Assembly (NCBI GenBank): GCA_900319655.1
Contig: ONPH01000046.1
Coordinates: forward strand, 1-11,239
DNA: 11,239 nt
Origin: an uncultured Eubacteriales bacterium
GTDB taxonomy: Bacteria; Bacillota; Clostridia; Oscillospirales; Acutalibacteraceae
Reading direction: 5' to 3'
The notes below the pieces were generated by a model. That model did no database searches. It was not told the DNA's origin and was given only the letters and a program-made list of their open reading frames with translations. Of this stretch, positions 7,325 to 11,239 are shown in pieces. Both the position numbers and the translations under genes were made by a program. Numbering within the stretch: the stretch's first letter is position 1; each line of letters starts with the position of its first letter.

Positions 7325-7353
7325 TTGACAAACGGATAAAAATACTGTATACT
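7325..7353 (+). promoter_or_regulatory. Sigma-A promoter of the DUF3793-flavodoxin operon
   Basis: A consensus -35, TTGACA (7325-7330), a 17-nt spacer and a -10 of TATACT (7348-7353). The predicted start near 7360 falls at the edge of the first palindromic operator. Confidence 0.85.
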
Positions 7354-7361
7354 ACAATACA

Positions 7362-7377
7362 GTTAGCAACCGCTAAC
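7362..7377. promoter_or_regulatory. Palindromic operator, copy 1 (GTTAGC-aacc-GCTAAC)
   Basis: A perfect 6-bp inverted repeat with a 4-nt centre, starting 8 nt after the -10 element and so covering the predicted transcription start. It is the first of four copies that share the arms but differ in the centre, as expected of a dimeric repressor site. Confidence 0.8.
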
Positions 7378-7380
7378 CTA

Positions 7381-7397
7381 TGATATTATTAATATCA
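7381..7397. repeat. Perfect inverted repeat TGATATT-att-AATATCA
   Basis: Seven-base arms with a 3-nt centre, lying 3 nt after operator copy 1 in the leader. The arms recall the TGATAAT half of Fur boxes, but the spacing (7-3-7) is not that of a standard Fur box. It may be a second regulator site or just a weak A+T-rich hairpin. Confidence 0.45.
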
Positions 7398-7440
7398 AAT
7401 GCAACGGCGTCCATAGCGGATGCATATTTTCGGGATATCG

Positions 7441-7456
7441 GTTAGCAATAGCTAAC
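7441..7456. promoter_or_regulatory. Palindromic operator, copy 2 (GTTAGC-aata-GCTAAC)
   Basis: This copy has the same arms as copy 1, begins 79 nt further on and ends 17 nt before the ribosome site GGAGG (7474-7478) of the DUF3793 gene. In RNA it would also form a 6-bp stem with a tetraloop. It could act as a second repressor site, a roadblock or a leader hairpin. Confidence 0.75.
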
Positions 7457-7487
7457 TGATAGTAAAATCCCTCGGAGGAATACGCAG

Positions 7488-8045
7488 ATGTCGGAAGATT
7501 TGATAATTAAGCATTGTTCTCCTACCCTCGCGGGGCTGAAAACCGCTAACCTTTTCAGCTGCGTCTACACAGACAAGGCTGAACTTAAGCGCTATGCAGA
7601 GCGATTTAACGAGCGTTTCGGCGCGTGGGGAGTAAAAATGCAGCCGTTGGAATTTGGCAGGGAACGCGCCTTGATTTATGTTTATCGCCCGACAAAGCTT
7701 AAAAAGGATTTGAGCGATTTTCAGTCCAGAGATATTCTCTCATCCTTTGGCTACAAGCGGTTTGAGCTGACCGAGTGTATCGAAACGCTCAAAAGCAGAA
7801 TTAACCGCTGCAAGGCTTTTCCGCACGAAATCGGACTTTTCCTCGGTTATCCTCCCGAGGATGTCCGCGGGTTTATTCTTCATAAAGGAAACTGCTGTAA
7901 ATGCTGCGGTTGTTGGAAGGTTTACGGTAATGAAGAAAAAGCCCTGCGCGAGTTTGCCAAGTATAAAAAATGCTCCGACATCTATTATTCCAAATGGCTC
8001 AGCGGAACATCATTTACAAAATTAATCGTTAAAAAATCAGCGTAG
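7488..8045 (+). CDS. DUF3793 family protein
   Basis: A 185-residue cytoplasmic protein of the DUF3793 family, recognised from the opening KHCSPTLAGLKTANLFSC (residues 8-25), the central FPHEIGLFLGYPPEDVRGFI (111-130) and the late WKVYGN (143-148). The family has no established reaction. It is common in Clostridia and often sits next to flavodoxin and iron-transport genes, and here a flavodoxin follows 14 nt downstream. The notable feature is a dense cysteine cluster, CCKCCGC (136-142), next to the conserved WKVYG, together with Cys10 and Cys161. This could bind metal or act in redox chemistry. That is an inference, since family members do not all seem to carry so many cysteines. The ATG at 7488 has GGAGG at 7474-7478. 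Control by the two palindromes upstream is likely. Confidence 0.9.
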   Translation: MSEDLIIKHCSPTLAGLKTANLFSCVYTDKAELKRYAERFNERFGAWGVKMQPLEFGRERALIYVYRPTKLKKDLSDFQSRDILSSFGYKRFELTECIETLKSRINRCKAFPHEIGLFLGYPPEDVRGFILHKGNCCKCCGCWKVYGNEEKALREFAKYKKCSDIYYSKWLSGTSFTKLIVKKSA

Positions 8046-8059
8046 GAAGGTAGTTTATT

Positions 8060-8482
8060 ATGAGTAAAACAGCAGTAGTATTTTGGAGTGCCACAGGTAA
8101 CACCGAGGCTATGGCGGACGCCGTAAAGGAAGGCGCTGCACAGGCAGGCGCTGAGGTAAGCGTATTTTCAGCTTCGGATTTTTCAGCGGATAAAGCCGCA
8201 GAGTTTGACTCGATAGCCTTCGGATGTCCCGCAATGGGCGACGAGGTGCTCGAGGAGGATGAGTTCCGGCCGATGTTTGATGCGGTTCTGCCTGCACTTA
8301 AGGATAAGAAAATCGGTCTTTTCGGCTCATACGGCTGGGGAGACGGTCAGTGGATGCGCGACTGGGAGGAAACCTGCAAATCTGCAGGCGTTACCCTTGT
8401 AAGCGAGCCTGTAATGGCTAACGAAGCTCCCGGCGACGAGGCTGTTGCAGCCTGCAAGGCGCTTGGCGCGGCTTTGGCTTAA
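8060..8482 (+). CDS. Short-chain flavodoxin
   Basis: A 140-residue flavodoxin: a soluble FMN protein that carries one electron at a time at low potential and commonly replaces ferredoxin when iron is scarce. The phosphate-binding loop is SATGNTEAM (residues 10-18). The 50s loop is FGCPAMGDEVLEEDEF (54-69) and the 90s loop is FGSYGWGDGQW (88-98), with Tyr91 or Trp93 placed to stack on the flavin. The acidic surface (DEVLEEDE) is typical. Length fits the short-chain class, with no insertion in the last strand. The ribosome site AGGAAGG (8044-8050) overlaps the stop region of the DUF3793 gene, and the 14-nt gap indicates one transcript. A hairpin terminator follows at 8573-8597, so the operon is just these two genes. 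Confidence 0.95.
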   Translation: MSKTAVVFWSATGNTEAMADAVKEGAAQAGAEVSVFSASDFSADKAAEFDSIAFGCPAMGDEVLEEDEFRPMFDAVLPALKDKKIGLFGSYGWGDGQWMRDWEETCKSAGVTLVSEPVMANEAPGDEAVAACKALGAALA

Positions 8483-8572
8483 AATATATTTATTAATTAT
8501 GCTCTACCGAAAGGCATCGTAGCGGTACAACGGTTTGCCGATCCAATACCAATTTCATTATTATTTTGCATG

Positions 8573-8597
8573 AACGTCTGCTTTTGCAGGCGTTTTT
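8573..8597 (+). terminator. Terminator of the DUF3793-flavodoxin operon
   Basis: AACGTCTGC (8573-8581) pairs with GCAGGCGTT (8586-8594) across a TTTT loop, with one G-U pair. The run of T at 8593-8597 supplies the tail. It lies about 90 nt after the flavodoxin stop codon. Confidence 0.75.
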
Positions 8598-8628
8598 GCA
8601 TTGTTATTCTTATTGATTTTTATAGGGT

Positions 8629-8642
8629 ACGGTCTTGACCGT
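8629..8642. repeat. Small perfect palindrome ACGGTC-tt-GACCGT
   Basis: Six-base arms around a TT centre, about 20 nt ahead of the next -35 and followed by a few T residues. It may be a second weak terminator or an upstream regulatory site. The evidence is only the symmetry. Confidence 0.35.
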
Positions 8643-8661
8643 TTGATTTTCGCATTGTAGC

Positions 8662-8690
8662 TTGACAAAACGGGTATTCTAATTTATAAT
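8662..8690 (+). promoter_or_regulatory. Full-consensus sigma-A promoter of the HMA-ABC operon
   Basis: TTGACA (8662-8667) and TATAAT (8685-8690) are separated by exactly 17 nt. Both hexamers match the consensus perfectly, so this should be very strong unless repressed. The operator copy beginning 4 nt later is well placed to do that. Confidence 0.93.
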
Positions 8691-8693
8691 ATA

Positions 8694-8709
8694 GTTAGCG
8701 AACGCTAAC
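8694..8709. promoter_or_regulatory. Palindromic operator, copy 3 (GTTAGC-gaac-GCTAAC)
   Basis: The first base lies 4 nt after the -10 element, so the site covers the predicted transcription start. Here symmetry extends one base further inwards (GTTAGCG pairs with CGCTAAC around AA), making it the most symmetrical of the four copies. Confidence 0.85.
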
Positions 8710-8745
8710 TGTTTTATTGCGTGACGCTTTTAATTTTGCGCAAAG

Positions 8746-8761
8746 GTTAGCATAGGCTAAC
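8746..8761. promoter_or_regulatory. Palindromic operator, copy 4 (GTTAGC-atag-GCTAAC)
   Basis: This copy begins 52 nt after copy 3, in the leader and 25 nt ahead of the HMA gene. Its left part, AGGTTAGC, equals the half-site of the DtxR/IdeR consensus, but the arms stand further apart than in that consensus. Confidence 0.8.
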
Positions 8762-8786: not shown

Positions 8787-9041
8787 ATGATTAAAACGAC
8801 ATTAACGATTGACGGAATGATGTGCCCGATGTGCGAAAGCCATATAAACGATGTAATCCGTAAGGATTTTGAGATTAAAAAGGTAAGCTCCTCGCATAAA
8901 AAGGGCATAACCGAGATTATCAGCGAAACCGCGCTCGACGAAGCGGCAGTCAAAAACGCCATTGACAAAACAGGCTACAAGGTGATTTCGGTAAAAACAG
9001 AGCCGTATGAGAAAAAGCGCTTTTCGCTTTTCGGGAGGTAA
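8787..9041 (+). CDS. Small HMA (heavy-metal-associated) domain protein, CopZ-like fold
   Basis: An 84-residue protein consisting of one HMA ferredoxin-like fold with the metal-binding motif GMMCPMC (residues 10-16, ligands Cys13 and Cys16) in the usual first loop. The rest gives the expected pattern, including EIISETALDEAAVKNAID (47-64) and TGYKVISV (66-73). The tail EKKRFSLFGR is basic and hydrophobic. HMA proteins of this size usually carry Cu(I) or another soft metal to a transporter or regulator, although this one could bind a different metal. It is the first gene of an operon: the ABC ATPase starts 2 nt after its stop codon, and that gene's ribosome site GGGAGG lies within the last codons here. 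The ribosome site of this gene is only CAGGA (8773-8777), weak compared with its neighbours. Two operator palindromes precede it. Confidence 0.9.
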   Translation: MIKTTLTIDGMMCPMCESHINDVIRKDFEIKKVSSSHKKGITEIISETALDEAAVKNAIDKTGYKVISVKTEPYEKKRFSLFGR

Positions 9042-9043
9042 GT

Positions 9044-9679
9044 ATGTCGAACGTGAGCTTTGAGCTTGATGAGGGCAAGTTTGTGGTTATCCTCGGCCCG
9101 TCGGGAGCGGGCAAGAGCACATTGCTCAACCTTCTCGGCGGTCTTGACAGCCCCACAAGCGGCACAATCACCGTCGGCGGCAGGGATATAAGCACCCTTT
9201 CCGACAACGAGCTTGCCGACTACCGCGCCGCGACGGTGGGCTTTGTATTTCAGTTTTACAATCTGATACCCACTCTGACGGTGTACGAGAATGTCGAGCT
9301 TGTCTCGCAGATTTCGCCTAATTCGCTCGACGCTAAAAAGATGGTAGCCGAGGTCGGCTTACAGGACCATCTGCACAACTTTCCTGCCGAGCTCTCGGGC
9401 GGTGAACAGCAGAGAATTTCAATCGCCAGAGCGCTTGCCAAGAATCCGAGGATTTTGCTCTGTGACGAGCCGACAGGCGCGCTCGACTCCGAAACAGGCG
9501 TTATGGTGCTCAAGCTGTTGCTCAGCATGGCAAGAAACTACGGCAAAACCATAGTAATCGTCACCCACAACCAGAGTATTGCGAAAATGGCGGACGTTGT
9601 AATCCGCGTTAAAAACGGAAAAATTCGCTCAATGACGGAGCAGGAAAACCCGATGAGCGCCGACGAGGTGGAGTGGTAA
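9044..9679 (+). CDS. ABC transporter ATP-binding protein, LolD/MacB type, short N-terminus
   Basis: A 211-residue ATPase with all core motifs: Walker [10 protein letters not shown] (18-26), Q-loop Gln70 in FVFQFYNL, signature LSGGEQQR (117-124), Walker B ILLCDEPT (137-144) with catalytic Glu142, D-loop GALD (145-148) and H-loop His175. The sequence GGLDSPTSG (32-40) is typical of LolD/MacB partners of FtsX-type permeases. The reading frame begins at SNVSF, where family members normally have about 25 more residues holding the first strand and the A-loop aromatic residue. In-frame codons upstream end at a TGA at 9008-9010 and include no start codon, so the ATG at 9044 with GGGAGG at 9033-9038 is the only choice. 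ATP binding may be altered, or the part may have been lost. The last base of its stop codon is shared with the start of the permease gene. Confidence 0.92.
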
Positions 9680-11239
9680 TGCTTATACGCAAGTTGTTCC
9701 GTACCGCGTGGGGCTACAAGGCTCAGTTTATCTCGATGATAATTATGATAACGCTCGGTATGGGTATGTTTTTGGGCTTCAATATGGAGTGGGCGACAAT
9801 CGAGCACGACACGTTCAAGTTCTTTGACCAAACTCGTTACGCCGACTACCGCCTGTATTCGCAGGAGGGCTTCACGAGCGGTGATTTGGAGAAAATCTCG
9901 CAGATTGACGGCGTTGACTCCGCCACGCGCTTTCTCTCGGTCAACCTCGATATTAAGGGTGAGAAGAACAAATCCCTCGCGCTCGACGTCAGCGAAAATT
10001 ACACGGTATCAACCTTCACGGTAATGCAGGGCGCGGAGTATGACGAAAACAGCGACGGCTTTTGGCTGTCGGATAAATTCGCTTCTCTTAACGGTTATTC
10101 TTTGGGCGATACCTTAACGCTCGAATATCAGGGCGTTGAGCTCTCGGGCGAGATTGTGGGGCTTATCAAGGCAGGCGAGCATATGATTTGCGTTGCCGAT
10201 AAAAACCAGATGATGCCCGACTACAACACCTTCGGCTACGCCTATATCACGCCGAAAAAGCTTAAAAGCTTTGTCAGCGACAAGGCGAAAAGCTCTTTTA
10301 AGGACGAGCTGACAAAGTCGGGAGTTCCGTCTGAATTTGCCGACGACAGTCTTGTTAATATCTTTGTGACGGACGATACTTTGGAGAAGGCGGAAAACGC
10401 CGTGTTCGCACAGATTAATCTGATTTCGGATTTGGACAAGCAGAGCCTTGAAAGCGCGGTCAAGGACAAGCTCGGGCGGACGATTATGGTTACTCCCAAG
10501 GACGACCACGTTGTGTTCAAGGAATCTCAGGGCGAAGCCGAGGAAGGCAAGACAATGGGCTCGGTACTGCCCGTGCTCTTCCTCGCAATCGCGATACTCA
10601 CGATGGTCACGACAATGCACCGCATAGCCACCAAGGAAAAGCTCCAAATCGGCACATTAAAGGCGCTTGGCTTTAAGAACCGCAGGATTTTGCTCCACTA
10701 CACCTCTTATGGACTGTTTATCGGGCTGTTCGGCACGGCACTTGGAATAGCCCTCGGCTACGCCGTCTGCAAGCTGATAATGAGCGAAAACGGAACGATG
10801 GGCACTTACTTTGATATGCCCGACTGGTCGGCAGTAATTCCGCCGTTTTGCTATCCCGTAATGGCAGGCACTATCGGCTTGCTCACGCTAATCAGCTACC
10901 TGTCGGTACGCAGTCAGCTAAAGGGCACGGCGGCTGACGCGCTCAGACCGTATTCGCCTAAGAAAATGCGCAAGGTTTTTCTCGAAAAATTCAGATTTTG
11001 GGATAAGCTTCGTTTCGGCACAAAGTGGAATATCCGTGATTTGAGCCGCCACAAAAGCCGTTCTGCGATGACCTTGTTCGGCATAGCAGGCTGTATGGTG
11101 CTTATGGTCGGCGGCTTGGGAATGCGCGACACAATGTCGGGCTTTCTCGACTTGCTTAACAACGATATTTCAAACTACACAACAAAGGTGAATTTAGTCG
11201 ATAACGCCGACAAAAAGAAGGCTGTAAATTTAGCGAATG
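9679..11239 (+). CDS. ABC transporter permease, FtsX/MacB type (runs off the window)
   Basis: The first 520 codons of a large permease, with the C-terminus beyond the window. Order of parts: one membrane helix (about 16-36), a large extracytoplasmic domain (about 40-290), then a FtsX-type block of three helices (about 295-317, 344-366 and 386-410), with the conserved cytoplasmic stretch KLQIGTLKALGFKNRRIL (321-338). A second half opens with WNIRDLSRHKSRSAMTLFGI and a helix near 463-483. This duplicated layout fits the long permeases of Firmicutes that move or sense peptides, lipids or drugs rather than simple metal importers. The ATG overlaps the ATPase stop codon (TAATG), so the two are translationally coupled and form one transporter. 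The substrate is unknown. The link to the HMA protein and the shared operators suggests a metal-related role, which is an inference. Confidence 0.9.
   Translation, partial: MLIRKLFRTAWGYKAQFISMIIMITLGMGMFLGFNMEWATIEHDTFKFFDQTRYADYRLYSQEGFTSGDLEKISQIDGVDSATRFLSVNLDIKGEKNKSLALDVSENYTVSTFTVMQGAEYDENSDGFWLSDKFASLNGYSLGDTLTLEYQGVELSGEIVGLIKAGEHMICVADKNQMMPDYNTFGYAYITPKKLKSFVSDKAKSSFKDELTKSGVPSEFADDSLVNIFVTDDTLEKAENAVFAQINLISDLDKQSLESAVKDKLGRTIMVTPKDDHVVFKESQGEAEEGKTMGSVLPVLFLAIAILTMVTTMHRIATKEKLQIGTLKALGFKNRRILLHYTSYGLFIGLFGTALGIALGYAVCKLIMSENGTMGTYFDMPDWSAVIPPFCYPVMAGTIGLLTLISYLSVRSQLKGTAADALRPYSPKKMRKVFLEKFRFWDKLRFGTKWNIRDLSRHKSRSAMTLFGIAGCMVLMVGGLGMRDTMSGFLDLLNNDISNYTTKVNLVDNADKKKAVNLAN

Follow-up and report, generated by a model that had tools for sequence, protein, structure and literature searches.

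The stretch of DNA considered here (the window: 11,239 nucleotides of contig ONPH01000046.1, assembly GCA_900319655.1, from an uncultured Eubacteriales bacterium of the Acutalibacteraceae) carries two adjacent operons on the forward strand, each with two copies of the palindrome GTTAGC-N4-GCTAAC close to its promoter. The first operon encodes a DUF3793 protein and a flavodoxin, and the second encodes a small HMA-domain protein, an ABC transporter ATPase and an FtsX-like permease. Comparison with related genomes makes it very probable that a two-domain iron-dependent repressor of the DtxR family, whose gene lies elsewhere in the bacterium's own genome, uses the palindromes as its operators. The features of the locus are as follows.

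7325..7353, + strand: sigma-70-type promoter of operon 1 (TTGACA-17-TATACT, 11/12 in a consensus scan)
7362..7377, no strand: predicted operator 1a, GTTAGC-AACC-GCTAAC, exact match, at the expected transcription start
7441..7456, no strand: predicted operator 1b, GTTAGC-AATA-GCTAAC, exact match, in the leader, ATG 47 base pairs (bp) downstream
7488..8045, + strand: DUF3793 protein, 185 amino acids (PF12672, E 3.3e-59)
8060..8482, + strand: flavodoxin, 140 amino acids (PF00258, E 2.1e-17)
8662..8690, + strand: sigma-70-type promoter of operon 2 (TTGACA-17-TATAAT, 12/12 in a consensus scan)
8694..8709, no strand: predicted operator 2a, GTTAGC-GAAC-GCTAAC, exact match, at the expected transcription start
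8746..8761, no strand: predicted operator 2b, GTTAGC-ATAG-GCTAAC, exact match, in the leader, ATG 41 bp downstream
8787..9041, + strand: small HMA-domain protein, 84 amino acids (PF00403, E 8.5e-6)
9044..9679, + strand: ABC transporter ATPase, 211 amino acids (PF00005, E 1.9e-37), N-terminus shorter than in close homologues
9673..11239, + strand: FtsX-like permease, truncated by the window end (PF02687, E 5.7e-16; GTG at 9673, ATG at 9679)

A pattern scan of the window found four exact copies of GTTAGC-N4-GCTAAC, and 200 dinucleotide shuffles gave no exact match. No fifth exact copy lies within the window, where the three further matches carry three mismatches apiece. The exact matches and the shuffles confirm the four palindromes of the original prediction, together with its statement that the window holds no other complete copy. 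Both pairs belong with strong, near-perfect sigma-70-like promoters, from which the start points of the two operons are expected; the scan agrees with the proposal of one copy at the predicted start and one in the leader of each operon. Operator 1a begins 14 bp past the start of the -10 hexamer, which is the commonest offset in the wider site set described below, and operator 2a begins 9 bp past it, a rare offset (1 of 95 pairings).

The bacterium's own assembly (G000; 1.6 Mb in 226 contigs, 80.7% complete) contains six exact copies of the motif, four of them in the window, and none of a reversed control. The two copies that the genome-wide scan added lie 142 bp upstream of an enolase gene (C30:3595, L107) and in the gap separating an MMPL gene from a gene judged TetR-like by eye (C143:639, L108). 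The comparison set comprised 59 genomes: the own genome, 35 of the same genus and 23 from other families of the order. Exact copies number 111 in this set and are spread over 41 genomes, against four for the reversed control. The flanks of all 111 sites were fetched, and 96 of the sites fall outside open reading frames as called by a crude caller; several of the remaining 15 look like over-extended starts or weak reading frames. A random, coding or unconserved distribution, which the original prediction had taken as counting against it, was not what the 59 genomes showed. A different palindrome, GTCAGCTAA[A/C]GCTGAC, is present in six copies with a conserved centre on other contigs of the own genome (C47, C136, C138, C167, C202 and C222), which suggests that these copies are part of a longer repeated element.

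Across 172 sites with the left arm GTTAGC, the motif extends to R-GTTAGC-N4-GCTAAC-Y, with a purine before the site in 87% and a pyrimidine after it in 94%. When sites were paired with promoters of at least 10/12 matches (95 pairings, in which one promoter may pair with two sites), the -10 hexamer began 13-16 bp before the site in 61, and in eight the site lay 16 bp before the -10 hexamer, within the spacer. Neighbouring sites no more than 120 bp apart are spaced by 34 or 35 bp in 21 of 52 pairs (L056-L131, L298-L377), the first site of such tandem pairs being located just past the -10 hexamer in most cases listed. The window pairs, 79 and 52 bp apart, depart from this spacing.

An open reading frame of at least 60 amino acids begins within 350 bp, on either side, of 100 of the 111 sites. 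In this count divergent neighbours are included and one site may count for two clusters. The largest cluster of neighbours is FeoA/FeoB (40 sites in 27 genomes), followed by DUF3793 (20 sites, 11 genomes) and DtxR itself (6 sites, 5 genomes). The dtxR gene adjoins sites in G026, G028, G029, G032 and G033, and sites lie between divergent feoA and dtxR genes at L056, L063, L096 and L099. Smaller clusters include a NuoE-like [2Fe-2S] protein (4 sites, 4 genomes), an ABC transporter with a fused membrane domain (4 sites, 3 genomes), enolase, ZIP and NusG-domain-II proteins (3 sites and 3 genomes each), DUF2325 (3 sites, 2 genomes), and ArsR-like, MMPL and two further unnamed clusters (2 sites and 2 genomes each). 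Neighbours from these 13 recurrent clusters accompany 84 of the 100 sites; 29 of the 42 clusters are confined to one genome, among them FecCD (G048). The sites at feoA/feoB, DUF3793, ZIP and FecCD genes, together with a DtxR-family gene in the own genome, support the earlier suggestion of a metal-responsive and possibly DtxR-like regulator. The exact site precedes enolase genes in three genomes (G000, L107; G002; G034), for which iron logic offers no obvious explanation, and it adjoins MMPL genes in G000 (L108) and G021 (contig C4, L093).

The association was also examined from the side of the genes, by searching 350 bp upstream of each for TTAGCN4GCTAA with no more than one mismatch. DUF3793 and feoB genes were taken from a Pfam search of the 59 genomes, and feoA genes from those regions and from loci fetched via the motif. 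Among genomes whose DtxR-like protein has Arg at position 43 (R43 genomes, defined below), a site was found upstream of DUF3793 in 14 of 15, of feoA in 30 of 32 and of the main feoB (E under 1e-200) in 25 of 28, while shuffled upstream sequences reached the site score in 0.2-1.9%. In these counts genes with fewer than 150 bases upstream are excluded, some second feoB paralogues were not fetched, adjacent feoA and feoB may share one site, and 80 of the 181 upstream regions come from loci fetched via the motif; all DUF3793 genomes were found through Pfam alone.

Homologues of the HMA-domain protein were found in G012, G017, G027, G035 and G048, among the loci fetched. An exact site begins 58 bp upstream of the HMA ATG in G012 and 315 bp upstream in G035, and in G017 and G027 the HMA and ABC genes lie downstream of DUF3793, with sites upstream of DUF3793. 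Because HMA/ABC homologues sit near sites or within DUF3793 operons elsewhere, the tie between the two window operons recurs, and comparative genomics supports the original placement of DUF3793-flavodoxin and HMA-ABC under one dimeric regulator. Compared with close homologues from eight further genomes, the window's ABC ATPase is about 23 residues short at the N-terminus. The missing stretch resembles IVxFENVTRxYTSGEHELKALD, comes ahead of NVSF and covers the region preceding the Walker A motif; either a genuine deletion or a fault in the assembly may account for it.

The geometry of the sites points to the DtxR/IdeR family. The 19-bp IdeR/DtxR box is described as two overlapping TTAGG-N4-CCTAA sites, one per dimer, with one dimer on repeats 1 and 3 and the other on repeats 2 and 4 (PMC8464063). 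DNA with a single repeat pair binds one dimer of Saccharopolyspora erythraea IdeR with a dissociation constant of about 78 nM, and TTAGGNNNNCCTAA was proposed by the same authors as a minimal consensus (PMC8464063). The original prediction held the spacing to be divergent, 4 nt as opposed to 1; however, this difference arose from a mis-registration, because the motif had been compared with the innermost two repeats of the box, which belong to different dimers. By alignment, the window site has the geometry of one IdeR-type single-dimer unit, with one base changed per arm (TTAGC-N4-GCTAA vs. TTAGG-N4-CCTAA).

Matches to PF01325 occur in 57 of the 59 genomes at E 0.001, 52 of them above the cut-off. 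The single above-cut-off match in the own genome (L141:1486-1857, contig C150) is a putative protein of about 122 amino acids, termed L141 here, with above-cut-off PF01325 (5e-12) and PF02742 (1.5e-12) domains that make it a member of the DtxR/MntR family. Its predicted model matches DtxR, IdeR and MntR structures, and its nearest solved chains by sequence are those of MntR (1on2, 1e-14). It consists of the two DtxR domains only and has no C-terminal SH3-like third domain, so it is placed in the wider DtxR/MntR family and not with the three-domain IdeR. DtxR numbering was applied with a DtxR reference sequence and cross-checked at the N-terminus by a structural match (model residue 4 on DtxR residue 3). 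The aligned primary metal-site columns of L141 are Met10, Cys102, Glu105 and His106, a set described as iron-type (PMC4805248), with Met and Cys where MntR has ligands of the Asp8/Glu99 type. Position 43 is Arg and falls within the recognition helix of the predicted model.

In IdeR, direct hydrogen bonding to a base is described for one residue only, the corresponding Gln43, whose partner is the first C of CCTAA (PMC8464063). Among 56 DtxR-like proteins from the 59 genomes, counting three (G051, G019 and G043) that escaped the pattern used for the rest, residue 43 is Arg in 42, Val in ten, and Ile, Ala, Asp or Lys in one each. For comparison with the operators, 38 genomes were classed as R43 (including G019, G021 and G034, each of which also encodes a further protein bearing Asp or Val at that position) and ten as non-R (eight Val, Ile in G044, Ala in G040). 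The 11 omitted comprise nine without a collected protein of the clade (one of them, G043, with an MntR-like protein) and two, G041 and G047, that combine Arg43 with Asp or Asn at position 10. Symmetric variants of the motif in R43 genomes number 102 of C-type (GTTAGC), six T, one A and one G, compared with three C-type, 18 T, three A and no G in non-R genomes, and a C-type majority is seen in 33 of 38 R43 genomes vs. one of ten non-R genomes (Fisher p 1e-5). An exact site is missing from five R43 genomes: three of them (G018, G024 and G030) still carry the inner TTAGCN4GCTAA upstream of feo genes, G015 has a one-mismatch form, and nothing of the kind was found in G001. The exact sites of G047 and G041 (two and one, respectively) are all C-type, a hint that the base follows residue 43 rather than residue 10; the feoA site of G041 is mixed (TTAGT..GCTAA).

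A second sample gave the same direction. Its R43 part consists of the best 80 of 585 loci from a scan of named genomes, all R43, with metagenome-assembled genome titles including Ruminococcus, Oscillospiraceae, Lachnospiraceae, Clostridia, Christensenella, Saccharofermentans and others. With base 1 left free, GTTAGN6CTAAC occurs at 69 sites in 31 of these 80 loci, and of their 138 half-sites 97 have G at base 1. For the V/I43 part, 269 of 297 genomes of the order matched a profile built from seven V43 proteins, and the best 30 loci, which are closest to the profile by construction, all have Val or Ile at 43. In 14 V/I43 genomes the free-base pattern occurs 83 times vs. 14 for the control; among the sites listed (75 in 12 genomes, G158 and G232 with four sites each being absent), the 150 half-sites have A at base 1 in 65 cases, G in 48, T in 29 and C in eight. 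The odds ratio between the two parts is 5 (p 7e-11 by half-site, p 5e-5 by locus or genome), in a comparison of dtxR neighbourhoods for R43 with whole genomes, background included, for V/I43, and with relatives that are not independent. At the level of sequence, Arg43 pairs with GCTAA, and Val43 or Ile43 pairs with ACTAA or mixed sites. The V/I43-class proteins (e.g., L139, L147 and L378-L407) carry Asp or Asn at 10 together with Cys102, a mixed iron/manganese-type set, and variant sites still precede feo genes in their genomes.

Read together, the genomes support the sites, their position with respect to predicted promoters, the conservation of sites at iron genes, the regulator family with its ligands, and the association of residue 43 with base 1; from this comparative evidence we infer binding, an iron signal, repression in preference to activation, and an Arg43-guanine contact. 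When ferrous iron is plentiful, one repressor dimer would occupy each GTTAGC-N4-GCTAAC site. At the promoter-proximal copy the iron-loaded dimer would block initiation by excluding polymerase from the start point, as has been described for IdeR boxes overlapping the start or the -10 element (PMC10317159), and a second dimer on the leader copy would strengthen repression. As iron falls, DUF3793-flavodoxin and HMA-ABC-FtsX would be switched on, like feoAB in relatives. Each site would represent the single-dimer half of the 19-bp box, its base 1 having changed from C to G (CCTAA to GCTAA) alongside a change of residue 43 from Gln to Arg. Repression of feoAABC by ferrous iron in Faecalibacterium duncaniae (PMC10781979) agrees by analogy with the repression reading.

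Several observations weigh against this iron-repressor interpretation or against the role it gives to residue 43. In a tree of 55 proteins all R43 rows fall on one side of a single branch (95/78); because R43 is one clade, the covariation amounts to little more than a single event, and the base change could stem from something else that distinguishes the R43 and non-R clades. A single GTTAGC-type site is present in each of the non-R genomes G005, G031 and G037, and the V43 genome G291 is rich in G at base 1 (0.61). The IdeR variant Q43A still binds the consensus and its authors favour indirect readout (PMC8464063), so residue 43 need not set specificity, and MntR Lys41 is reported to lie close to base pairs 4 and 5, position -5 being G in 12 of 20 half-sites (PMC11275975), so the contact register is not identical across the family. 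Among the 100 sites with a neighbouring gene, 16 have none from the 13 recurrent families, and exact sites lie before enolase and beside MMPL genes, which are not obvious iron genes. Other feoB paralogues have an upstream site in just 11 of 19 R43 genomes, and of the own feoB genes, the best match at L255 has three mismatches, while L277 came with no sequence upstream. The window operons do not adjoin the dtxR gene, and the best match on the dtxR contig, C150, has at least two mismatches. The ancillary metal ligands of DtxR are His79, Glu83 and His98, and in these columns L141 has His79, Ser83 and Val98, with just His79 kept.

This loss of two of three ancillary ligands would also fit an alternative in which the same DtxR-family protein responds to manganese, alone or together with iron, and the regulon is not specific to iron. 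The proximity of L141 to MntR chains, its lack of an SH3 domain, the ZIP transporter among the target families and the V43-class relatives with Asp/Asn10 point the same way, a regulator with Asp and Cys having bound both manganese and iron (PMC4805248). However, the own protein has the iron-type Met10 and Cys102, the change of MntR Asp8 to Met relaxed manganese preference (PMC2628430), and the dominant targets are ferrous-iron uptake genes, with FecCD and flavodoxin in addition, so that manganese sensing is considered improbable.

Less probable again is that another dimeric regulator (TetR-, ArsR- or Fur-like, Fur genes being outside the search) binds the sites and that the DtxR link is mere correlation. 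The own-genome site beside a TetR-like gene and the ArsR-like genes near sites in G032 and G034 could be read in this way, but the operator base varies with DtxR residue 43, dtxR lies beside sites in five genomes, and the geometry is that of the IdeR half-site. A TetR-like regulator, considered from the C143 site, was set aside, as the site set tracks feo, DUF3793 and DtxR residue 43. It is scarcely credible that the palindromes work at the RNA level, as attenuator or terminator hairpins, and not as DNA sites. Positions 8691-8712 do score as a terminator-like stem and T run, operator 1a (about 2 nt past the expected start) and both leader copies could be transcribed whole, and arm base 6 changes symmetrically in some relatives. 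However, 21 of the 69 sites in the 80 named loci have a base-6/base-11 combination unable to pair in RNA, and the eight spacer sites noted above would be untranscribed from their promoters; for these two reasons a hairpin function is disfavoured. An Rfam search of the window also gave no match.

The DtxR-family repressor proposed here would thus be a known kind of metalloregulator acting on what appears to be a new operator variant, its operator letter and recognition residue not having been found described in the literature searched. No paper on the motif or on DtxR in these bacteria was among the matches listed, which covered titles and abstract beginnings and open-licence PMC text only; those matches did include two Corynebacterium DtxR papers containing the motif letters and, for DUF3793, a mention in one fungal paper. 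Isolated half-sites appear to be the normal iron-regulon operator in many gut Clostridia, located where feo and DUF3793 promoters are predicted to start transcription, and IdeR half-sites in other species, with their role, are described as still to be investigated (PMC10317159). The chances are about even that isolated single-dimer DtxR half-sites, often in tandem at 34-35 bp, serve as the operators of the iron regulon in a large group of gut Clostridia, with operator and repressor co-evolved as Arg43-G, Val/Ile-A or weak, and Gln-C in actinobacterial IdeR. If true, a family in which base readout is under dispute would have a natural specificity code, and the association of residue 43 with base 1 makes direct vs. 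indirect readout by DtxR proteins testable with few proteins and oligonucleotides. DUF3793 and the HMA-ABC-FtsX operon gain a likely regulatory context in iron limitation.

Among known systems, MntR, a two-domain protein of about 140 amino acids, resembles L141 in size and contributes its nearest solved chains. The letters of the MntR box differ from the window operator, and the Met/Cys pair of L141 stands in place of Asp8/Glu99. The MntR equivalent of residue 43, Lys41, also reads a base (PMC11275975). The 19-bp DtxR/IdeR box TTAGGTTAGSCTAACCTAA contains the single-dimer unit twice, 5 bp apart, whereas neither the four window sites nor the base frequencies across the 172 sites show a second overlapping unit. 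The IdeR half-site TTAGG-N4-CCTAA of S. erythraea shares the 5-4-5 geometry, the CTAA core and a winged helix-turn-helix of the same family, is occupied by one dimer per site in the published case (PMC8464063), and precedes nuo genes; NuoE-like genes are among the targets here. The present system differs in having G in place of C at base 1 of the repeat, Arg in place of Gln at residue 43, and a protein that lacks the SH3 domain; isolated half-sites seem to be the usual operator in these Clostridia and not an exception.
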